64,000 nucleotides of DNA from Nocardia huaxiensis. GTDB lineage: Bacteria > Actinomycetota > Actinomycetes > Mycobacteriales > Mycobacteriaceae. The stretch's first letter is position 1, and every line of letters begins with the position of its first letter. The stretch spans positions 3,100,001 to 3,164,000 of the forward strand of contig NZ_CP059399.1 in assembly GCF_013744875.1 (NCBI RefSeq). Reading direction: 5' to 3'. This document shows positions 5,465 to 64,000 of the stretch, piece after piece. The notes beneath the pieces are model-generated. The model was not told the origin of the DNA, did no database searches, and worked only from the letters and a program-made list of their open reading frames with translations. Position numbers and translations under genes: made by a program.

Positions 5465-6475
5465 TCAGATCGTGCGGAGCCAGTCGATGACGGCGGCCTG
5501 GTAGTCCTTCGTGTTCAGGGCGAGGTTGAGCGAGTGGCCGCTGCCGGGGAGGACGTAGGTGCGCAGGCGGGCTGCCGGGGCGAAGTAGGGGGCCTCGGCG
5601 GCCTGCAATGCGACGGTGTCGGTGCAGATGGAAAAGGCTGGGCCGCAGGACAGTCGGTCCTGGCCGCCATTGACGATCATGACCGGGGCGGTGATGGATT
5701 CGGACATGCCGGGCAGGGTGGAGGTGAGGCCGTCGGGATATTCGGTGAGGGAGAAGGTTTCCTTGGTGGCCTCGTCCACGGCGAGCACCTGCGGATCGAC
5801 ATTGCCCGGCCCGTGGAAGTCGGATTCGCGGGCGCCGGGGCGGGTGACGAGGTAGCCGGAGTCGTAGCCGCGGTCGCGGAAGAGCGGGTCCTCGACGGCG
5901 GGGTGGTAGGTGCTGATCACGCCGAGCACGTCGGGGATGGACAGGGTGTGCGAGTAGCCGGTGAGGAGGACGCCGTCCACATCGTGGTGGGTGGTGGCCT
6001 CGATCACCGAGGTGCCGGAGGTGAGTGAGTGCCCGGCGGTGACGACCTTCGAGAACGGTTGCGCACCACCGAATCCGGCGCGCAGCGCCTGCACCAGGCC
6101 GTGCAGGGCGTCGGCGGTGGCCGTGGCGGTGAGGCTCAGGCTCGGCGGCCGGGTGCTCGCGCCATTGCCGAGCCGGTCGGCCACCAGGGTCGCGAAGCCG
6201 GCGGCGTTCATGGCGCGCCGGAAGTTGTAGGTCTCCGGGGCGTAGGGGAAATCCCAGTAGGTGTGGTTGTAGTTGGAGCCCGCCATCATCACCAGCACCG
6301 TGCCGGTGGGCCGGTCGGGCAGGCAGAGGGTGGTGGCGAGGCTGCCCTGCGCCACCGGGAATTCGATATCGCGGCAGCCGCCCGCGACACTCGGATCGGC
6401 CTGGGCCATACCGGGGACGAAGCTCAGCAGCAGGACCGCGGCCGACACCGCGGCGGCGCGGAAAGAGGTTCGCAC
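5465..6475 (-). CDS. Secreted alpha/beta hydrolase
   Basis: 336 residues from GTG 6475, chosen because GGGAGGG lies 6-7 bases upstream and the protein then opens with a Sec signal peptide (VRTSFRAAAVSAAVLLL, cleavage near AQA). A longer in-frame start exists upstream but would bury the signal. The mature protein has an alpha/beta-hydrolase pattern: strand VLVMMAGSNYN, nucleophile elbow GHSLTSG, and a C-terminal GSGHSLN that could supply the catalytic His. It is probably an extracellular esterase or lipase; the substrate is unknown. Confidence 0.8.
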   Translation of the reverse strand: MRTSFRAAAVSAAVLLLSFVPGMAQADPSVAGGCRDIEFPVAQGSLATTLCLPDRPTGTVLVMMAGSNYNHTYWDFPYAPETYNFRRAMNAAGFATLVADRLGNGASTRPPSLSLTATATADALHGLVQALRAGFGGAQPFSKVVTAGHSLTSGTSVIEATTHHDVDGVLLTGYSHTLSIPDVLGVISTYHPAVEDPLFRDRGYDSGYLVTRPGARESDFHGPGNVDPQVLAVDEATKETFSLTEYPDGLTSTLPGMSESITAPVMIVNGGQDRLSCGPAFSICTDTVALQAAEAPYFAPAARLRTYVLPGSGHSLNLALNTKDYQAAVIDWLRTI

Positions 6476-6627
6476 GCTTTGCCCTCCCTTGGGCCGGAGC
6501 GAATGAATCGATGGGTGAATTCGGCAGGCCATCCGGCCTGATGGCGAGACACGATACCGCACAATCAAATTCGTATGAGCGAATCTTCCGGATGGGTAAT
6601 CCGGGAAATTGATCTACGATGCACCGC

Positions 6628-7662
6628 ATGAGCACACGTGTTGTGCATTTTGTCGGTAGCTTTCCGGCCGACGGCACAGACGACGCCATGCGCGCCATGC
6701 TCGACGGCGCGGGCCGCCGCATGCTGACCCTCCCGACGGGCGAGACCTGGCGCTACGAGTTCTACATCCAGCCGATCATCGCGGAACTGGTGGCGCAGGG
6801 CGCCCTGGAGGTCAAGAAGCCGGGGACCTTGCGCTCCAGCAGAGAACGGTCCATTCACCGTGCGCCCCGGGGCATTCGGCTGACCGGCGACCTGTTGAAT
6901 CTCGGCTATCTGCGCGAAGCCGACGAAGCGCTGCCCGTCTTCCGGCGGCTGCGGGCGGAGTACGAACTGCCCGAGGTGTCGTTGCAGATCGGCATGCCGA
7001 CCGATTTCACCCTGGCCTTCATCGCCATGGGCGCGACCGGTCTCCGGCGACACCGAAAAGCCTTTCGCGACGCCACTGTTCGTGAAATGGCAGCGGTGCG
7101 AGCTCGCGTCGGCGCGGAAGTGGTGCTCCAATTGGAGGCCACCGCCGAATTGGTGCTCATGGCGAAAACGCAACCGCTGCACCGGAAAACGGATGCCGCC
7201 CTGCAGCTGTCCCGGGGCATCGCCGACCTGGCCGCGGCCGCGCCGGAGGGCGCCCGGATCGGTGTGCACCTGTGCCTCGGCAGCATGCACAATCGGGCCC
7301 GCGCCACCCTGCGCGATCTGCGCCCCTTCGTGGATCTCGCCAATTCGATCGCCCGGCAATGGCCTTCGGGCCGGACTCTGGAGTACGTCCACGGTCCCCT
7401 CGCGGCCGGGGAGCGCCCGCCGCCCACGCGATTCGAGTTCTACGCCCCGCTCGCCGAGCTGGATCCCGGCATCAGGTTCTACGCGGGTCTGGTGCACGAG
7501 GAGCCGAGCGAGCCGGAGCAGATACGGACCGTGCGTATGGTGGAGCGAGCGCTGGGCCGTCCGGTCGACGGCCTCGCCAGCGCCTGCGGTCTGGGCCGGC
7601 GTCCCCGCCCGATCGCGGACGCCATGGTGCGCCGCGCCGAAAGGCTGTGCGCCGCAGTGTGA
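6628..7662 (+). CDS. MetE/UROD-like TIM-barrel protein
   Basis: About 344 residues. It opens with VVHFVGSFPADGTDDAMRAML and LPTGETWRYEFY, then has repeated beta-alpha units (VSLQIGMPTDFTLAF, EVVLQLEATAELV, ARIGVHLCLGSM, GIRFYAGLVHEEPSE). This resembles the cobalamin-independent methionine synthase / uroporphyrinogen decarboxylase superfamily. The Cys/His zinc site of MetE is not evident, so methyl transfer is not claimed. A TACGAT -10-like element at 6615-6620 lies just before ATG 6628, which suggests a leaderless start; ATG 6619 is the alternative. Confidence 0.5.
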   Translation: MSTRVVHFVGSFPADGTDDAMRAMLDGAGRRMLTLPTGETWRYEFYIQPIIAELVAQGALEVKKPGTLRSSRERSIHRAPRGIRLTGDLLNLGYLREADEALPVFRRLRAEYELPEVSLQIGMPTDFTLAFIAMGATGLRRHRKAFRDATVREMAAVRARVGAEVVLQLEATAELVLMAKTQPLHRKTDAALQLSRGIADLAAAAPEGARIGVHLCLGSMHNRARATLRDLRPFVDLANSIARQWPSGRTLEYVHGPLAAGERPPPTRFEFYAPLAELDPGIRFYAGLVHEEPSEPEQIRTVRMVERALGRPVDGLASACGLGRRPRPIADAMVRRAERLCAAV

Positions 7663-8451
7663 TCAGCCCTTGCGCCCGATGCCGCCGAACAGCACCAGCT
7701 GAGTGTCGGGCAGATCGTCGCCCAGCCATTGCTGCACCGGCACCAGGCCCGGTTCGACGATCTCGAACCCGTCGAGGAATCGCAGCGTCTCCTCGTGGGT
7801 GCGGTAGGCGGGCTGGGCCGAACTCTTGGCGGTGTCCATGCCCGTGCGCTGCTTGAATTCCTCGGTGGTGGTGTCCCCGCCCTGCGTGAAGATCAGGTAG
7901 CTCCCGGGCGCCATCGCATCCCGGAGCCGGGCGACGACCTCGTATGGTTTCTCGTCGTCCATGATGAAATGCAATACGCCCACCAGCACAATGGCGACCG
8001 GCCGGGTGAAGTCGATGTGCTGTTCGGTCTGCAATCTGTCGAGCAGGTCCGGCGCCCGGACGTCGGCCAGCATGGTGGTGACGCCGGGCGCGCTACCCAG
8101 TGCCGCATTGAAGTGCGCGATGACCACCGGGTCGTAGTCGGCGGCCACCACGCGGGCCTCGGGTTCCACGGCGTGCACGATCTCGTGCACATTGGGTGCG
8201 ATGGGAATGCCCGCACCGATGTCGACGAACTGCCGAATCCCTTGTTCGGCAGCCATTTTCACGCTATTGAGCATGAACTTCCGGCTGAACCAGGCCAGCG
8301 CCTTGGTTTCGGGGGCAACCGCGAGCATGCGGTGGGCGACCATCTGGTCGACCTCGTAGTTGTCCTTGCCGCCCAGCAGGTAGTTGTAAACCCGTGCCGC
8401 GTTCGGCATGGACGGGTCCACCCCCACCGGGACGCGACCGGTCTCCGACAC
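7663..8451 (-). CDS. SAM-dependent methyltransferase, DUF574 type
   Basis: 262 residues from GTG 8451, preceded by GGGAGGT at 5 bases. A longer in-frame start at 8535 would overlap the neighbouring gene. The protein begins with the family hallmark DPSMPNAARVYNYLLGGKDNYEVD. It continues with the SAM-binding FVDIGAGIPI, the acidic VVAADYDPVV, and PVAIVLVGVLHF. This family is expanded in Streptomyces and Nocardia and its substrates are unknown. It converges on the MetE-like gene with no spacer. Confidence 0.87.
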   Translation of the reverse strand: MSETGRVPVGVDPSMPNAARVYNYLLGGKDNYEVDQMVAHRMLAVAPETKALAWFSRKFMLNSVKMAAEQGIRQFVDIGAGIPIAPNVHEIVHAVEPEARVVAADYDPVVIAHFNAALGSAPGVTTMLADVRAPDLLDRLQTEQHIDFTRPVAIVLVGVLHFIMDDEKPYEVVARLRDAMAPGSYLIFTQGGDTTTEEFKQRTGMDTAKSSAQPAYRTHEETLRFLDGFEIVEPGLVPVQQWLGDDLPDTQLVLFGGIGRKG

Positions 8452-8531
8452 CGCACCTCCCTCGTATCCCGTCGATCGTATCCAAGCCCTGACTGTTGTC
8501 AGGCGAAAACACTCCCGGCGGGACGCGGGTC

Positions 8532-9491
8532 TCAACCGACGGTGATGGGCAGGGTCGGCGCCGCGCCTTCTCCCTTCTTCGCGTCATAGGTCAGCGTGTA
8601 GGCGCCGCGTACCGGGTCGGGGACCACGAACACGACGTAATTCTTGGCGCTGTCGATGGTTTCGTTGCGGTTGAGCAGTTCGTTGATCGGCCCGCGCATA
8701 TCGGCGGTGACCAGCTGCCCGTCCGGGGTCTTCAGGGTGAAGTAGTCATAGAAGACATTCAGCCCGCCATCGGCGATGCCTGATCCTCCAATGATCTTGA
8801 TGTGCAGGGCGAGCTCCATCTTGCCGCGCTCGTCCTCGGTGTAGCTGGGCGTGAGCGTGCCCCCGGTGACCTCGATGGTGGTCTGATCCTGCACCAGTTT
8901 TCCGCTGACCGTCAGCGCACGCGGCTGCACGGTGTCGACCTTCGCGTCGGCTTTCAACGGAATCTTGGTCTGATTGTCGGAGGGCTGTCCGTACACCACC
9001 GTCATGGTGTCGAGCAGGTGTTCCGCATCCGACAGTCTCTGCACCGACGTGGTGACACTCCCTGCGGCAGAACCCTTTCCGGGCACACTCGGATTGTCGA
9101 AACTGGCCCCGCCGTCGATCTCGCCGCCCACCTGCAAATAGCTGCTGCTGTACAGCGTCGCATTATCGGTGGAGGTGTTCTTGTACGTGATATCGATCCG
9201 CACCTTCCCCCCGCCGTATTCGTCCGGCACCACGGTCGCCTTGTCCACCGTGATCTCGAACCCGCTGTAATACCCCGTCTTCCCCACGGTCCGCACCGTG
9301 GACTGCCCGTTCTTCCCACCCGGCTGCTGTCCATCGACCGACGTCCCCGCCACCACCGTAGTGGTCCCGTCCCCGCTGGTCTTGCCAGTGCACGCCGTCG
9401 TCAGCAACGGTGTCACCCCAATGAGCGCCACCGCCCCCACCGCGGTCACAATCCGCCGTTTCCGCCCAACGGAATTCCTATTCGATCGCAC
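8532..9491 (-). CDS. Secreted or lipid-anchored protein of unknown function
   Basis: 319 residues from GTG 9491 (GGGAGG four bases upstream). A basic N-terminus and hydrophobic segment (RKRRIVTAVGAVALIGVTPLL) end in TTAC, a weak lipobox. Residues from about 55 to 180 look like a DUF4352/telokin-like beta-sandwich (YYSGFEITVDKATVVPD, KVRIDITYKNTS). A second sandwich-like half follows (LTVSGKLVQDQTTIEVTGG, GKMELALHIKII). It probably sits on the outer face of the membrane. Function unknown. Confidence 0.65.
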   Translation of the reverse strand: MRSNRNSVGRKRRIVTAVGAVALIGVTPLLTTACTGKTSGDGTTTVVAGTSVDGQQPGGKNGQSTVRTVGKTGYYSGFEITVDKATVVPDEYGGGKVRIDITYKNTSTDNATLYSSSYLQVGGEIDGGASFDNPSVPGKGSAAGSVTTSVQRLSDAEHLLDTMTVVYGQPSDNQTKIPLKADAKVDTVQPRALTVSGKLVQDQTTIEVTGGTLTPSYTEDERGKMELALHIKIIGGSGIADGGLNVFYDYFTLKTPDGQLVTADMRGPINELLNRNETIDSAKNYVVFVVPDPVRGAYTLTYDAKKGEGAAPTLPITVG

Positions 9492-9782
9492 GCTGCCTCC
9501 CAACAGATTCGCAATCCCAGTGCGCGCACGCCCGGACCCCCGAGCGCATGTTTCGCACTGAAATCTTGCACGCGCGCCGACACGTTAACCAGATGATCGT
9601 GCACGCGCGATTGGCTATATTCGCAATGCGGCAGTGACGAGCGTGACGAACTCCGAGCCGCTCGGCCGGTCACCGAATGCGACGACCGTCAGAGGCAGCC
9701 GATTCGGCTGTGAAGGTGTGGTGGCACCGCGACTTCCCGATCGCCCACACCTCCCGGGGCAACTACTCAGGAGGTGGATTCG

Positions 9783-10725
9783 ATGACACGTACTCTCTGC
9801 GCGGAATTGGCCGCCGCACATGCAGCGCGACCGGACGGGTCGGTGACGGTCGAGGGGTGGGTACACCGGCGGCGACAGTTGTCCGGATCGACGTTCGTGG
9901 TGGTGCGGGACAGGTCCGGCACGGCGCAGGTGGTGGCCACGGAAGACGCTGTCCGGCAGCGGATTTCGGAGCTCCCGGAGGAGACGGTGGTACGGGTTTC
10001 CGGCCGGTTGACCGCCAACGTCCAAGCACCCGGCGGCATCGAGATCGTCGACCCGGAGATTCGGCCGTTGAGTGCGCCATCGCTCCCGACACCCGTCGAA
10101 TTATGGCGGCCCGCACTGAAAACCGGCCTGCCGACGCTGCTCGACCACGCCGCGCTCACCTGGCGACACCCTCGCCGCCATGCTCGACCGGGTGCGGGCC
10201 GTGGCGGGCGCGGCGGTGAAGCTCGCCGGAGCGGAGCTTCCGGTAGTGCCTGAACACATTCCGGTGTTGCACTTCTCGGACGCCCTCGAACTGGTGGGCG
10301 CGCCCGCGGAGGAGCCCGACCTGGCCCCGGAACACGAACGCGCCCTGAGTAAATGGGCCAAAACAGAATTCGGCTCCGATTTCCTCGCGGTCGAGGGCTA
10401 CCCGGCGGCCAAGCGGCCGTTCTACACCCACCCCCAACCCGGCGACCCGCGCTGGACCAACTCCTTCGACCTCCTCTTCCGTGGCCTCGAACTGGTCACC
10501 GGCGGCCAATGCCTGCACAACTACGCCGACTACCGCACCGCCCTGGCCGCGCGCGGCGAGGACCCGGCGCGGTACGAGGCGTACCTGGAGGCCATGAGTC
10601 ACGGCATGCCCCCGCACGGCGGCTTCGCAATCGGGTTGGAGCGCTGGGTATCCCGTCTGGTCGGCGCGGAGAACATTCGCTCGGTCACGCTCTTTCCCCG
10701 CGACCTCCATCGCGTCCGGCCCTGA
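9783..10725 (+). pseudogene. Archaeal-type aspartyl-tRNA synthetase, internally deleted
   Basis: A strong ribosome binding site (AGGAGGTGG) precedes ATG 9783. The first 125 or so codons encode the OB-fold anticodon-binding domain (SVTVEGWVHRRRQLSG to LLDHAALTWRHP). Near 10160-10175 the sequence jumps into a different frame and continues as the class II catalytic C-terminus (VPVLHFSDALELVG, YPAAKRPFYTH, GGQCLHNY, GGFAIGLERWVSRL). The middle of the catalytic domain, including motifs 1 and 2, is missing, so a deletion of a few hundred bases plus a frameshift has killed the gene. A sequencing error alone cannot explain the missing motifs. The C-terminal piece could start at ATG 10180 but could not aminoacylate. 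Confidence 0.8.
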
Positions 10726-58155: not shown

Positions 58156-60219
58156 GTGGCTGACGGCGACCAGGTCGGTGACACGGAGAATCCGGGCGGC
58201 AGGCGGTTCGCGGTATCCCGGCGCGGCATGTTCGGGGTCGGGGCGGCGGCGCTCGCCGCGGTCGGCGTGGGCGGCACGCTCAGCGGGTGCGGCTCCTCCG
58301 ACGAGGTCAATCCCTCGGCGACGCAGACCGATCCGACCGATCACGTGGTCGCGGCCAACCGGAAGATCGCCGAGAGCTACCCGTTCTCCGACACCGTCGA
58401 CTTCGCCGACGCCGACCACGGCTTCATCGCTGATCTGAAGCCCGGCGTCGTCAAGGATGCCAATGGGAAAGTGGTGTGGGACAACGATTCCTACGGCTTC
58501 CTGCGGGGCACCTGCCCGTCTTCGGCCAATCCGAGCCTGTGGCGGCAGTCGCAGCTGGTGGTCAAGCAGGGTCTCTACGAGGTGGCTCCCGGCTTCTACC
58601 AGGTGCGCGGCCTGGACCTGTCGAACATGACCATCATCGAGGGCGACAGGGGCATCATCGTCATCGATCCGCTCATCTCCACCGAAACGGCGGCCGCCGG
58701 TCTCGCGCTCTACCGTGAACACCGTGGCAATCGACCGGTTACCGGACTGATCTACACCCACTCGCACGTCGACCACTTCGGCGGCACCCTGGGCGTCGTC
58801 GCCCGCGAGGACGTGGAGTCCGGGCGCGTCCCGGTGCTCGCCCCCGTAGGGTTCCTCGAGCACGCCGTCTCCGAGAACATCTATGCCGGCACCGCCATGG
58901 CCCGCCGTGCCGCTTACATGTACGGCGCCGCCCTGCCGCGCGGCGAGAAGGGCCAGATCGGCGCGGGCCTGGGCCAGACCACCTCCACCGGCACCGTCAC
59001 CCTCATCGACCCCACCATCGACATCACCGCCACCGGGCAACAGGAGGTGATCGACGGCGTCCGCATGGTGTTCCAGATGACCCCCGGCACCGAGGCCCCG
59101 TCGGAGATGAACTTCTACTTCCCCGACCGCCGCATCCTGTGCATGGCCGAGAACGCCGTGCACACCCTGCACAATGTCCTCACCCTGCGCGGCGCGCTGG
59201 TGCGCGACCCGCACGTGTGGTCCAAGTACCTCACCGAATCCATCAATCTCTATGCGCGCCAATCGGATGTGGTGTTCTCCTCGCACCACTGGCCCATCTG
59301 GGGCACCGACAAGATCGTGGAATACCTTTCCCTGCAACGGGATCTGTACGGCTACCTCAACGACCAGTCACTGCGCCTGCTCAACCAGGGCTACGTGGGC
59401 AGTGAGATCGCCGAGATGATGCAGGTCCCGCCCGCCATCCAGCAGGCGTGGTTCACCCATGGCTACTACGGCTCGGTGTCGCACAATGTGAAGGCCATCT
59501 ACCAGCGCTACATGGGTTGGTTCGACGGCAATCCGGCGCACCTGTGGGAGCATCCGCCGGTCGACTCCGCCAAGCGGCACGTGGACGCCATGGGCGGCGC
59601 GGACAGCGCCCTGAAGACCGCCCAAAAGGCGTACGACAGTGGAGATTTCCGCTGGGCGGTGCAGGTCACCAACTATGTGATCTTCGCCGACCCGGACAAC
59701 AAGAAGGCCAAGGACCTCGAGGCGAGCGCCTTCGAACAGCTCGGCTACGGCTCCGAATGCGCCACCTGGCGCAACTTCTACCTCTCCGGTGCGTACGAAC
59801 TCCGCAACGGCTCCTTCGGCACGCCCACCTCGGCCAACTCCAAGGGCCTGCTCGCCGCCCTCACCGTCGATCAGGCCTTCGACGCGATCTCCCTGGTCAT
59901 CGATGGCCCGAGGGCCTGGGACACCCGCATCACCACCGACTGGCGCTTCAGCGACGACAACAATCGAGTGCACCGCGCCGAACTGCGCAATGGTGTGCTG
60001 ATCCACTACGACCGCTGGCCCGGCGACGACCTGCCCGCCCCCGACGCCACCGTCACCCTCACCCGCGGCGCCTTCCTGCAGAACATGCTGGCGGGTGGCA
60101 GTATGCAGGACGCCGTGGTCAAGGGCGAGGTCAAGATCGACGGAAACCCGGCCGTCCTCCTGCAATTCAAGAACCTGGTCACCAAGCCGGACCCCAACTT
60201 CGCCATCGTCACCCCCTGA
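58156..60219 (+). CDS. Alkylsulfatase-type MBL hydrolase, Tat lipoprotein
   Basis: 687 residues from GTG 58156 (AGGAG upstream). The N-terminus has twin arginines (SRRGMFGVGAAALAAV) and a lipobox (LSGC), so it is probably folded before Tat export and lipid-anchored. The MBL core has THSHVDHFGGT near residue 200, the SdsA1/BDS1 binuclear zinc motif. A helical dimerisation region (YQRYMGWFDGNPAHLWEHP) and a C-terminal SCP2-like domain follow. Substrates are probably primary or secondary alkyl sulfate esters. A paralogue begins at 63241. Confidence 0.88.
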   Translation: MADGDQVGDTENPGGRRFAVSRRGMFGVGAAALAAVGVGGTLSGCGSSDEVNPSATQTDPTDHVVAANRKIAESYPFSDTVDFADADHGFIADLKPGVVKDANGKVVWDNDSYGFLRGTCPSSANPSLWRQSQLVVKQGLYEVAPGFYQVRGLDLSNMTIIEGDRGIIVIDPLISTETAAAGLALYREHRGNRPVTGLIYTHSHVDHFGGTLGVVAREDVESGRVPVLAPVGFLEHAVSENIYAGTAMARRAAYMYGAALPRGEKGQIGAGLGQTTSTGTVTLIDPTIDITATGQQEVIDGVRMVFQMTPGTEAPSEMNFYFPDRRILCMAENAVHTLHNVLTLRGALVRDPHVWSKYLTESINLYARQSDVVFSSHHWPIWGTDKIVEYLSLQRDLYGYLNDQSLRLLNQGYVGSEIAEMMQVPPAIQQAWFTHGYYGSVSHNVKAIYQRYMGWFDGNPAHLWEHPPVDSAKRHVDAMGGADSALKTAQKAYDSGDFRWAVQVTNYVIFADPDNKKAKDLEASAFEQLGYGSECATWRNFYLSGAYELRNGSFGTPTSANSKGLLAALTVDQAFDAISLVIDGPRAWDTRITTDWRFSDDNNRVHRAELRNGVLIHYDRWPGDDLPAPDATVTLTRGAFLQNMLAGGSMQDAVVKGEVKIDGNPAVLLQFKNLVTKPDPNFAIVTP

Positions 60220-60303: not shown

Positions 60304-60624
60304 GTGACCACACATTCGACCGCGCTGGCGCCGAATGCTCCAGCATCGGGATGGCCGGACCTGGCAGATGTCGACCTGCTGCGCACCCTCGTCGAAACCG
60401 AACGCCGCCGGCGGCGGCTGGATGCCGCCATGCGGGCGGCCGTCGCCGAAGCCGAGCGCCGTGGCCTCGCCGCGGACACCGGCTACCGGGACACCGTGGA
60501 CCTATTGACCGACCTGCTGCGGATCAGCACCCACGAGGCGCGCCGCCGAATCGAATACGCCGCCGCTCCGCCGCCCCGCTCACGTTCCAGGAAGGTATGG
60601 CGCGTGCTGGCGGCAGCCAGCTGA
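60304..60624 (+). pseudogene. Truncated DUF222/13E12-family HNH nuclease gene
   Basis: 106 codons from GTG 60304. The segment DVDLLRTLVETERRRRRLDAAMRAAVAEAERRGLA to DTVDLLTDLLRISTHEARRRIEYAA is the N-terminal start of a DUF222 domain. Shortly after RRIEYAA the frame degenerates and stops; the rest of DUF222 and the C-terminal HNH domain are absent. It may be the footprint of an insertion or deletion that placed the next two genes here. Confidence 0.7.
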
Positions 60625-60679: not shown

Positions 60680-60692
60680 TACACTTCAGTGA
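60680..60692 (+). promoter_or_regulatory. Leaderless promoter of the VWA/ARPP-1 operon
   Basis: TACACT (60680-60685) is a good actinobacterial -10, six bases before ATG 60692, and there is no ribosome binding site, so transcription probably starts at or next to the start codon. No convincing -35 was found. Confidence 0.45.
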
Positions 60693-61987
60693 TGAACACC
60701 GCAGAAATTCTCGACCACTTCCGCAGCCGCGGCGCGCCACTGGTGTTGTCCAGGGCCGGCGCTGTGGTGTGGGATGACGCGGAATTCCATGAGGCCGCTT
60801 ATATTTCGGATCCCGAGGGATACGCGCTGCTGGCGCTGGTTCCCGGCGTGCGGGACGCACAGCGGGCCCGGGTGCTTTTGCAGGTGCTCCGGGTTTCCAG
60901 GGCGGGATTGAGCGAGGAAAGCCGCGTGGTTCTCGATAAGTGCACTCGGGCACTGATTTTCGGGATTCCGCCGAATTCTGTTGTCACCGTGCTGCTGGCG
61001 CTCCGGCGTATGCGGGCCAACCATAAGCATGTGGCCCGGGGGATTCTGAGCTTTGTGCTCGATCATCCGGATGGGGAATTGCTCATCGCGGCGCGGCGGC
61101 CCGCGTTGCGGGATGCTTTCGAGCATGCGCTGGGCAAGGCGACCGCGCGCGGGTGCGCCCGGCTGATTGCCCAAGGCGACGTCGGGTCTGCCGAGCTGCG
61201 GCGGAAACTGTTGCGGTTCAGCGCTGATCCGGCGGTGGCGGTGCAGCGGGTGGCACAGCTGTACGGGGCGGGCATCCACGGGGTGCCCGCACTGACCGAC
61301 GCGGTGCGGCCGCTGGAGCTGGTTCGGATTCGGCAGCCGATCGTCACGGTCACCAATCGCGGGGATATCGCGGCCACGCTGGTGCATGTCCACCGCGGGG
61401 TGCAGGCTGCCGAATTGCATACCGCCCTGGGTGATTACGTCACCGCGGCCGTGCGGGAACTGCCTCGGCTGGCAGGCCGGGTGGCGCTGGTGCTGGACGC
61501 TTCGGAGTCCATGCGCGGGTACGGGGATCGAGAGTGGGCGCTGCTGTCGCAGGCCGAGGCGCTGCGCCTGGTGCTGGCGCGGGTCTGCGCGGAGCTCGCC
61601 GTGGTCGAGGTCGGCGCGCATCAGGCCGGGCCCACCGACCTCGCGATGGGAGTGCTGGACGCGCTGGCGCAGAGTCCCGACCTGGTCGTGGTGGTCACCG
61701 ACGGATACGAGAACCGGATGCCCGGGGACCTGGCGCGGGTGGCGGCGACGCTGCCCGGGATCGGGGTCCGGACGCCGATTCTGTTGTGCCTGGCCACTTT
61801 CACCGCCAGCGACAATCGGAGTCTCCGCGATCCCGCGCCGGCGCTGCCGCACGAGAGCTTCTGGCATCAGGACGATTTCGGTGCGCTGCTGCCGTGGCTG
61901 TTCGCGCACAGCCCGCACGGCGGGGACTGGATTCGCACTGCCGCAACACGATTCCTGGATCGTCGGCTCGAAGGAGTGACACCATGA
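60692..61987 (+). CDS. VWA protein with helical N-terminus, Ro60/TROVE-like
   Basis: 431 residues from ATG 60692. Residues 1 to about 255 are helical and solenoid-like (ALLALVPGVRDAQRARVLLQ, VLLALRRMRANHKHVARGIL, RDAFEHALGKATARGCARLI). The C-terminal VWA domain has an intact MIDAS: D269-x-S271-x-S273 (LVLDASESMRGYG), T315 (AGPTDLAMG) and D337 (VVVVTDGYENRM). Helical repeats plus a C-terminal VWA is the architecture of Ro60/Rsr, the Y-RNA-binding ring protein of RNA quality control, but this protein is shorter than Deinococcus Rsr. The VWA call is firm; TROVE is inferred. Its stop overlaps the ARPP-1-like gene, and a structured RNA candidate follows. Confidence 0.7.
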   Translation: MNTAEILDHFRSRGAPLVLSRAGAVVWDDAEFHEAAYISDPEGYALLALVPGVRDAQRARVLLQVLRVSRAGLSEESRVVLDKCTRALIFGIPPNSVVTVLLALRRMRANHKHVARGILSFVLDHPDGELLIAARRPALRDAFEHALGKATARGCARLIAQGDVGSAELRRKLLRFSADPAVAVQRVAQLYGAGIHGVPALTDAVRPLELVRIRQPIVTVTNRGDIAATLVHVHRGVQAAELHTALGDYVTAAVRELPRLAGRVALVLDASESMRGYGDREWALLSQAEALRLVLARVCAELAVVEVGAHQAGPTDLAMGVLDALAQSPDLVVVVTDGYENRMPGDLARVAATLPGIGVRTPILLCLATFTASDNRSLRDPAPALPHESFWHQDDFGALLPWLFAHSPHGGDWIRTAATRFLDRRLEGVTP

Positions 61988-62931
61988 CCGGACTCGAGAC
62001 ACTGGTTCGCGCACCCGTCGACCTGAGCGGGTATCGGCTCGGTGCGCCGCAGCGGGCGGGAGCACTCACCATGGTGCCGGTGCACGGGCCGCAGCGGCCG
62101 GGCATCGTGCCGCCGCGATCGGGGCTGAAGCTGAATCGCGTTGTCGGATACGGGAGTGTGGAGTTGCGCAATGGCTCGCCCTCCGGGGTGGCCATCGTGC
62201 CGCTGCACATCGGCTACATCCAGGAGGGCGCGCAGAATCACGCGCTGTGCTCGGCCGCGCTCCTGGGTGCGGGGGAGACCCGCCTGTTCCGGGATGCCTG
62301 CTGCGTGCAGGCGGCGCAGGGTGGCTATCTGGAGGGCCGCGATCAGTGGTTCTTCGTGCTGCCGCTGGAGCTGCGCGCGAAGGCCCTGACGCTGCGCGGG
62401 CAGGAAGGGTATTCCAAGCTGTGGCAAGAGATTTCGGCCGTCAACCGGCGGTACCAGCTGCCGGCGCGCGGGCACCTCGAGCAGATTCTCACCCGCCAGC
62501 GCGCGGTGCTCACCCAGTTCCGCAGCCGGCTGGAGCTGCTGCCCGGTCAGCTGGGCGCGCTGTTCTTCGTCGGAAAGAAGTTCGCGGGCCTGGAGATCGC
62601 GCCCGACCCGCGCTTCTTCGCCGAGATGTGGATGCCGCTGGTGTGCTTCGCCTACGGTGTGGCCGCCTGGCAGCAGGAGCCGGAGCCGCCCGGGGGTGAG
62701 CCGTTCCCGGTCGCCGATCTGACGCACCTGCGCGCCGCCCTCGAGCGCGACCGGGCCCGCGCGGCCGCGGAGGTGCTGTCCTGGATGCCCGCCCAGGCTC
62801 CGATCCAGACCGTGGAGGAGGAGCGCTACCTGGACCTGCGGCTGCACACCGTCACCGGCGGCGGCCTCACCGGCCAGCTGGTGGGCGAGCACGACCGGCT
62901 GGTGTACGCCTCACTCTTCGCGGCGAATTAA
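61984..62931 (+). CDS. ARPP-1-like protein
   Basis: 315 residues from ATG 61984 (ATGA overlap). The middle reads VELRNGSPSGVAIVPLHIGY, then EGAQNHALCSAALLGAGE and RDACCVQAAQGG. The G82-A-Q-N85 motif, the following AGE and the C106-C107-V match the ARPP-1 pattern as I remember it (GAxQN, then AG, then CVE). ARPP-1 is named for its association with ADP-ribosylglycohydrolase and rhodanese-phosphatase genes and has no established activity. The C-terminal half is helical. Tight coupling implies that it works with the VWA protein. Confidence 0.6.
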   Translation: MTGLETLVRAPVDLSGYRLGAPQRAGALTMVPVHGPQRPGIVPPRSGLKLNRVVGYGSVELRNGSPSGVAIVPLHIGYIQEGAQNHALCSAALLGAGETRLFRDACCVQAAQGGYLEGRDQWFFVLPLELRAKALTLRGQEGYSKLWQEISAVNRRYQLPARGHLEQILTRQRAVLTQFRSRLELLPGQLGALFFVGKKFAGLEIAPDPRFFAEMWMPLVCFAYGVAAWQQEPEPPGGEPFPVADLTHLRAALERDRARAAAEVLSWMPAQAPIQTVEEERYLDLRLHTVTGGGLTGQLVGEHDRLVYASLFAAN

Positions 62932-62966
62932 ATAGGTTGCGCCACAACTGAACAGCGGAGAATATA

Positions 62967-63089
62967 GGAGTACGGGAACTGAGCCGGGCACGACGGAAAT
63001 CAACTTCGTTCCAGATGAAGATATGACTCGCCACGCAGCGATGAAAATCGATCCGTCATTGCGCCGGCCGCCTGTCCCGTACTTACTCC
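62967..63089 (+). ncRNA. Y-RNA-like structured RNA candidate
   Basis: A nested fold is visible. P1 is GTACGGGA (62970-62977) with TCCCGTAC (63075-63082). P2 is GCCGG (62983-62987) with CCGGC (63064-63068). P3 is GACGGA (62992-62997) with TCCGTC (63052-63057). Inside are a 5-bp/7-base-loop hairpin with loop TTCCAGA (63004-63020), matching T54-T55-C56-x-A58 of a tRNA T-arm, and CGAT-GAAA-ATCG with a GNRA loop (63039-63050). A long closing stem plus a tRNA-like head is the layout of bacterial Y RNAs such as YrlA. A promoter is possible (TTGCGC 62937-62942, 17 bases, GAATAT 62960-62965), and a terminator follows. No ORF explains the segment. Confidence 0.6.
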
Positions 63090-63092
63090 GTG

Positions 63093-63129
63093 ATCCCCCG
63101 GTGAGATTCCCGATTCTCACCCGGGGGAT
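63093..63129 (+). terminator. Intrinsic terminator of the RNA/VWA operon
   Basis: GGTGAGA (63100-63106) pairs with TCTCACC (63115-63121). The stem continues as ATCCCCC (63093-63099) with GGGGGAT (63123-63129) after one bulged C. The loop is 8 bases, and TTTCCCCTTTTCC follows. This is among the best intrinsic terminators in the window. Confidence 0.85.
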
Positions 63130-63240: not shown

Positions 63241-64000
63241 GTGGGAGCACCGACGGAACCGAGCGAATACATCGTGCAAAAGCAGCAGCGGGCCATCGCG
63301 GAACTGCCCTTCGGCAATACCGTCGACCAGGCCGACGCCGACCGTGGTTTCATCGCTGCTCTGGAACCGGGCACGGTGCGCGACGCCGCCGGAAAAGTCG
63401 TGTGGGACACCGAGTCCTACAGCTTCCTGCAGGGCACCTGCCCGTCCTCGGTGCACCCCAGCCTGTGGCGGCAGTGCGGCCTCACCCTGCGCCAGGGTCT
63501 CTACGAGGTGACCGAGGGCATCTACCAGATCCGCGGCCTGGACCTGTCGAACATGACCCTGGTCGAGGGCCGGACCGGCGTGATCGTCATCGACCCGCTC
63601 ATCTCGGAGGAGACCGCCCGCGCCGGGCTCGCACTGTATCGCGCCCATCGCGGCGACAAGCCGGTCACCGGTCTCCTCTACACCCACTCGCACGTGGATC
63701 ACTTCGGCGGCGCCATGGGCGTCACCACCGTCGAGGACGCCGAGTCCGGTCGCTGCCCGGTGCTGGCCCCCGCCGGGTTCCTCGAGCACGCCGTCGCCGA
63801 AAACGTCTACGCCGGAACGGCAATGGGCCGCCGCGCCGCCTACATGTACGGCGCCGCCCTGCCCCGCGGCCCGAAGGGGCAGGTGGGTGCGGGCCTGGGC
63901 CAGACCACCTCGACCGGCACCGTCAGCCTCATCGCCCCCACCCTCGACATCACCCACACCGGCCAGGAGGAGACGATCGACGGCGTTCGCATCGTCTTCC
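63241..64000 (+). CDS. Alkylsulfatase-type MBL hydrolase paralogue (partial)
   Basis: 253 codons from GTG 63241 (GGAGA 7 bases upstream) to the window edge. It is closely similar to the protein at 58156 along its length, sharing GTCPSS, YQIRGLDLSNMT (YQVRGLDLSNMT there), YTHSHVDHFGG and FLEHAVAENVYAGTAM. It has no signal peptide, starting directly at EPSEYIVQKQQRAIAELP, so it should be cytoplasmic, unlike its Tat-exported paralogue. Confidence 0.88.
   Translation, partial: MGAPTEPSEYIVQKQQRAIAELPFGNTVDQADADRGFIAALEPGTVRDAAGKVVWDTESYSFLQGTCPSSVHPSLWRQCGLTLRQGLYEVTEGIYQIRGLDLSNMTLVEGRTGVIVIDPLISEETARAGLALYRAHRGDKPVTGLLYTHSHVDHFGGAMGVTTVEDAESGRCPVLAPAGFLEHAVAENVYAGTAMGRRAAYMYGAALPRGPKGQVGAGLGQTTSTGTVSLIAPTLDITHTGQEETIDGVRIVF

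Follow-up and report, generated by a model that had tools for sequence, protein, structure and literature searches.

A cassette that probably encodes a distinct Ro-type ribonucleoprotein was identified at 60692-63129 on the forward strand of the window, the 64,000-nucleotide (nt) stretch of Nocardia huaxiensis DNA analysed here (NZ_CP059399.1, positions 3,100,001 to 3,164,000). It comprises a gene for a Ro-like VWA protein, a gene for an ARPP-1 protein and a Y-like RNA. This composition is real and unusual, and the reading as a Ro-type particle with ARPP as its partner is given a probability of about 70%. Ro60 is a human autoantigen, and the role of Ro60 and Y RNAs is still debated. In the mechanism proposed, for which we infer the RNA binding by the VWA protein, the docking of ARPP and the substrate, the VWA protein would form a compact TROVE-like ring that holds its dedicated RNA at the basal stem, as Ro60 and Rsr hold Y RNAs. 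This stem would be formed by GGGA(A)CU facing a C-rich strand with a UCCC end, around an internal loop or bulge, and the hairpin or tRNA-like head of the RNA would lie outside the ring and gate it or dock a partner. ARPP, encoded by the near-constant next gene with its overlapping start, would be the likely partner and effector, and is probably an enzyme whose invariant Q-H-C-Q set acts on ribose or RNA ends. Such a particle would act in the surveillance or processing of RNA that is damaged, tRNA-like or misfolded; the handling of damaged tRNA-like RNA in particular is suggested by the tRNA mimicry seen in some of the RNAs together with the ribose chemistry proposed for ARPP.

The VWA gene (open reading frame (ORF) A, 60692-61987) encodes 431 amino acids (aa) from an ATG start, with an alternative GTG three bases earlier, and its stop is overlapped by the start of the ARPP-1 gene (ORF B, 61984-62931); the overlap is four bases, as an earlier note on this DNA had described. 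The nearest protein found, with 99% identity, came from Nocardia huaxiensis. The same note had read a helical N-terminus followed by a VWA domain with an intact metal ion-dependent adhesion site (MIDAS). Both features were recovered, the MIDAS residues D269, S271, S273 and D337 being invariant in 22 aligned sequences and T315 being kept in at least 90% of the aligned sequences. The only Pfam match of ORF A was VWA_2, below the threshold (E 0.12). The AlphaFold model of ORF A was confident and matched Ro60/Rsr/TROVE structures across both the helical domain (approximately 250 aa) and the C-terminal VWA domain. The first five rows of the VIA-align comparison were Ro/TROVE chains, aligned over 322-335 residues and both domains, the first two of which stood clear of the first VWA-only chain, and the top Foldseek match was Ro60. 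The TROVE-like fold of the N-terminus, which had been put forward for checking, is therefore supported by the predicted model. That 13 of the 21 cassette hosts searched had a further TROVE match at another place in their genome argues against the cassette protein being simply the Rsr of these hosts.

ORF B scored 114.2 bits (E 1e-32) against ARPP-1 (PF20208), for which the curated cut-off is 27. It contains the motifs GAQNHA and ACCVQAAQGG, in line with the ARPP-1 assignment originally made from GAQN and CCV. The residues Q84, H86, C107, Q109 and Q112 were invariant in 27 sequences, and ORF B and the relatives scanned were members of ARPP-1 or ARPP-2 (PF20208, PF22549) by score.

Of 63 pattern matches, 24 encoded an ARPP relative, in 23 distinct loci, and the VWA gene was directly 5' of the ARPP gene in all 23. 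The hosts were Nocardia, Nonomuraea and Rhizohabitans, and metagenome-assembled genomes labelled Cyanobacteria, Myxococcales, Armatimonadota and Planctomycetia. Relatives of the VWA protein were present in 14/244 genomes of the cyanobacterial phylum and 7/199 of the planctomycete phylum (profile A2, E 1e-5), and in 2/296 actinobacterial, 5/140 myxococcal and 3/101 armatimonad genomes (profile A6, E 1e-8); these counts include the centre genome, whose label gives the phylum name, and are based on few candidates scored per genome. ARPP-1 or ARPP-2 followed the VWA gene in 24 of the 26 loci with an extended flank, a count that leaves out L134-L136. Beyond the pair, the neighbours differed except among close relatives (15 loci with ORF starts read). 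Plasmid-borne relatives were found on three Nostoc plasmids and one Alkaliphilus plasmid (Bacillota), two of these four being inspected.

The RNA of the window type, class A, lies 3' of the pair on the forward strand. It spans 62969-63083 (approximately 115 nt), as judged from the fold, the alignment and the covariance model, with approximate ends set from the basal stem. The segment 62932-63140 folded at -83.9 kcal/mol (z -5.5), and 0 of 200 shuffles were as stable, in agreement with the strongly folded non-coding segment noticed at first. In the alignment, the basal-stem motif is formed by CGGGAACT (62973-62980) on the 5' strand and GCGCCGGCCGCCTGTCCCG (63061-63079) on the 3' strand. The alignment and fold place two hairpins in the head, at 63004-63020 and 63028-63041. 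The first of these has the 7-nt loop UUCCAGA, the U-N-C-C-A pattern of which was kept in 21 aligned actinobacterial RNAs, and is the only candidate for a tRNA-like feature in the window RNA head. A true T-loop has a purine at the fourth place. Since this place is a C in the window, the hairpin, the T-arm mimic of the earlier note, is T-loop-like only. The intrinsic terminator of that note was recovered in part: the fold has a long G+C-rich hairpin 3' of the RNA (63093-63129), but its tail, TTTCCCCTTTT, is poor in T and not a T run, and the hairpin was absent from the terminator scan list, so that it is a possible terminator only.

The class A alignment consisted of 19 actinobacterial copies, with the structure assigned by hand from the fold. 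Changes on both sides were found in 11 of the 32 pairs, and 93.1% of the cells were paired, compared with 34-47% in slid controls. A covariance model built from this alignment (R1) matched the RNA at 22 of the 23 cassette loci. Five of these loci were outside the training set: L021 (Armatimonadota; E 1.2e-14), L012 (4.6e-13), L014 (9.9e-13), L018 (a cyanobacterium; 1.4e-7) and L020 (Myxococcales; 0.0011). The L020 value is not convincing alone, because antisense R1 matches at the same places reached 2.9e-5. At L023 there was no R1 match, and a stem RNA was seen by eye upstream of its VWA gene. When 12 host genomes were searched, all 10 strong matches (E 3.2e-6 or better) were at pair loci and three further matches were weak (E 0.007-0.05); R1 found nothing in three of the 12, though loci from two of those three match it.

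Comparison of 21 actinobacterial RNAs also revealed two promoter-like boxes, a -35-like TTGC box (62937-62940 in the window) and a -10-like GAAT box (62960-62963), both on the forward strand. The TTGC box was located 36-40 nt upstream of CGGGAACT in 21/21 RNAs and was followed by the GAAT box in 20/21, with a spacing of 17-20 nt in 19/21. N. terrae has two copies of the class A RNA, and the second, which is not beside an ARPP stop codon, has both boxes. The conservation of the boxes, this second copy included, speaks for separate transcription of the class A RNA.

More distant pairs, in which the Ro-like VWA protein is accompanied by ARPP-2, were present in cyanobacteria, planctomycetes, myxobacteria, armatimonads and actinobacteria, with an RNA just upstream. 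This class B RNA, 2 to 220 nt 5' of the chosen VWA starts, is a hairpin of approximately 87 nt composed of an outer helix, one bulged pyrimidine, a GGGA/UCCC helix, an internal loop and a 10-bp inner helix. In the alignment (A9; 12 sequences from 11 loci), 16 of the 27 pairs had changes on both sides, and 90.7% of the cells were paired, compared with 36-47% when slid. The covariance model trained on A9 (R2) matched the RNA at 22 of 28 further loci reached by protein search. Half of these 22 were non-training loci (L083, L086, L093, L097, L126, L127, L128, L133, L134, L135 and L136), with E from about 1e-21 to 2e-7. At L084, L085 and L132 an RNA was identified by eye and not by R2. Among 11 non-training RNAs (ten R2 loci and L130), changes on both sides occurred in 21 of the 27 pairs, with 88.5% pairing compared with 35-47% when slid, values that are biased towards the model structure as these RNAs were selected and aligned by R2. 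R2 matched neither the window nor any of seven class A sources and four TROVE loci. Of 21 genomes searched with R2, 15 had matches, 17 in total; 16 of these were at already known pair loci, and the remaining one, in Nonomuraea jabiensis, led to a previously unknown place with VWA and ARPP-2 relatives. This genome search missed G047, although the G047 locus itself matches. Two cyanobacteria carried two RNA copies each. At L132, the Alkaliphilus plasmid, the cassette relative is downstream of a TerD family gene, and two AT-rich stem RNAs were seen by eye, one with a T-arm-like hairpin. At L093, two small ORFs lie between the VWA and ARPP-2 genes (5646-6385).

In planctomycetes a third RNA, class C, is located 5' of a VWA and ARPP-1 pair, in tandem copies (five in L085, three in L084). 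All 8 RNAs have GGG(A)ACU or a near variant as the 5' strand, and all 8 hold GACC, any base, GCA in the 3' strand. Rfam tRNA matches above the gathering cut-off were present inside three of the 8 (L084 6519-6590; L085 5679-5740 and 5946-6009). When read by eye, L084 copy 3 and L085 copy 5 have a T-arm, a closed acceptor stem and a D-arm in the order of a circularly permuted tRNA. Single-sequence folds had the closing stem in most class C copies, and those of L085 copy 1 and L084 copy 1 were without the whole shape. The L085 cassette is also beside a tRNA gene array (6100-9960), where, apart from the Y-like RNAs, Rfam gave 11 tRNA matches that pass gathering and share one strand, and three tRNA-Sec matches that do not pass it. 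In the cyanobacterial L018, the class A RNA is followed at 7541-7684 by a hairpin in which the two strands of the basal-stem motif stand in the reverse order, and immediately then by a tRNA-Thr-like unit (ARAGORN), possibly a tRNA-like RNA with an inserted Y-type stem. Permuted tRNA-like RNAs were also read 5' of the actinobacterial TROVE genes of L076, L078 and L080, upstream of which ARAGORN reported no tRNA.

The RNAs might instead be cis-regulatory elements of the operon (a leader, an attenuator or a 3' untranslated region structure) and not part of a particle. The position of the class B RNA is leader-like, and a strong hairpin follows the class A RNA of the window. However, stems of one kind stand 3' of the pair in class A but 5' of it in the other classes, several genomes have multiple copies (two in N. 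terrae and in two cyanobacteria, three and five in two planctomycetes), class A has its own promoter-like boxes even at the second N. terrae copy, and tRNA-like heads suit a trans-acting RNA. We consider regulation in cis to be unlikely.

The Ro-type reading rests on several likenesses to known systems, for which the cited papers were used in selected passages. Y RNA features were taken from PMC8394870 and PMC4726728; YrlA has a stem made from both ends and a tRNA-like domain, and the basal stem tethers it to Rsr (PMC8394870). Like Ro60 and Rsr, the cassette protein has, in the predicted model, a helical domain and a VWA domain, and, if it is of Ro type, its RNA gene adjoins the protein gene as in Rsr and YrlA. 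As in YrlA, the ends of the cassette RNA pair in a long basal stem with a bulge or internal loop and a separate head, which is tRNA-like in planctomycete copies. In contrast to Ro60 and Rsr, the protein is compact (431 aa; relatives about 440-580 aa), and the basal-stem sequence differs from that of the actinobacterial TROVE-linked RNAs. The gene context also differs, as the neighbour is ARPP and not rtcBA, the context described for Rsr, which has been studied in few bacterial species (PMC7790460). The lower stem of vertebrate Y RNAs is among the closest known structures, with no kinship claimed.

Other results weigh against full membership in the known Ro and Y RNA groups. Pfam TROVE (PF05731) was not matched by the window VWA protein or the 8 relatives scanned, a PDB sequence profile search with the VWA protein did not retrieve Ro, and sequence homology to TROVE proteins was confined to around the VWA half (hhalign). 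Rfam YrlA (RF02553) was unmatched at gathering in the window and 14 related loci, and also in five loci at E up to 1 and six at E up to 0.5, and its genome matches were all below the cut-off, with similar ones in Escherichia coli and Bacillus subtilis. L088 and L095 have the VWA gene and the RNA with no ARPP gene nearby. Three of the 28 further loci (L081, L082 and L129) had no RNA of such kind; the synteny expected by the earlier note therefore held for most homologous pairs examined, which carry a structured RNA, but this RNA is 5' of the VWA gene outside the window subfamily. The same note suggested that the trio might be an RNA-sensing or repair/conflict module, with the ring and its RNA controlling ARPP or being controlled by it. 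L129, from a myxococcal sample genome, has a very long stem 5' of its VWA gene (about 5700-6000), unlike classes A-C.

The protein findings among these might indicate that the VWA protein is a chaperone that resembles TROVE proteins only, with the RNA serving something else. In the passages of PMC9503650 used here, vWA is proposed as a peptide-binding chaperone in ARG systems, which can also hold ARPP, and helical repeats are prone to unspecific structural matches. This explanation is improbable, as among the 50 structural matches listed only Ro/TROVE chains, the first five rows, aligned over more than 300 residues and both domains, the RNA class tracks the protein class, and the RNAs are Y-RNA-like down to the single bulged pyrimidine and the tRNA mimicry. 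The same passages place ARPP beside ARG and rhodanese-phosphatase, and in neighbourhoods of two genes with HIRAN, WYL or a deacetylase. They mention no unit made of a vWA and an ARPP gene, and neither TROVE nor Y RNA appears as a term anywhere in that paper. A toxin module in which the RNA, alone or with the Ro-like ring, silences a harmful ARPP in the manner of a type III toxin-antitoxin system or retron is similarly improbable: the cassette is small, plasmid-borne in four cases and, among the 15 loci with ORF starts read, without an obvious third neighbour common beyond close relatives, and ARPP was described from predicted conflict systems (PMC9503650), but neither window protein matched a PADLOC family at E up to 1, single queries found no cassette relative in phage records or viral contigs, and L088 and L095 lack a nearby ARPP.

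If the cassette does encode a Ro-type particle, a wider proposal can be made, although we put it at slightly under even odds. The cassette may belong to an undescribed branch of Ro-type ribonucleoproteins spread over at least five, perhaps six, bacterial phyla. Each particle would consist of a compact VWA protein of TROVE-like fold, a Y-like RNA of its own, which in some lineages carries a complete or circularly permuted tRNA mimic, and an ARPP enzyme, for which no fold is known. Together these two proteins and one RNA would recognise damaged tRNA-like RNA and act on it chemically. Such a machine would be distinct from RYPER, in which an RNA links the Ro protein to PNPase, and from the RtcBA repair operon. 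The earlier note knew of no description of the trio, and none was found in the open PMC text searched, where DUF6569, PF20208, ARPP-2 and PF22549 appeared in no paper; subscription literature may hold one. With its dedicated RNA and a single constant protein partner, a second, compact bacterial Ro branch would provide a small, testable system for the role of Ro-Y particles. It would add Y-like RNAs at loci that Rfam leaves unrecognised and place the ARPP family in an RNA context. The range of heads borne by one kind of stem, from plain hairpins to full and permuted tRNAs, would make tRNA mimicry directly testable.

In the window, the cassette is flanked by two mutually similar genes (58156-60219 and 63243-64000), which we take to resemble alkyl-sulfatase/metallo-beta-lactamase proteins. 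Relatives of the upstream gene were found in L001 (one, 92% identical) and L006 (two, 82% and 70% identical). Immediately 5' of the cassette there is a short ORF (60304-60624), presumably resembling a truncated 13E12/DUF222-type protein.
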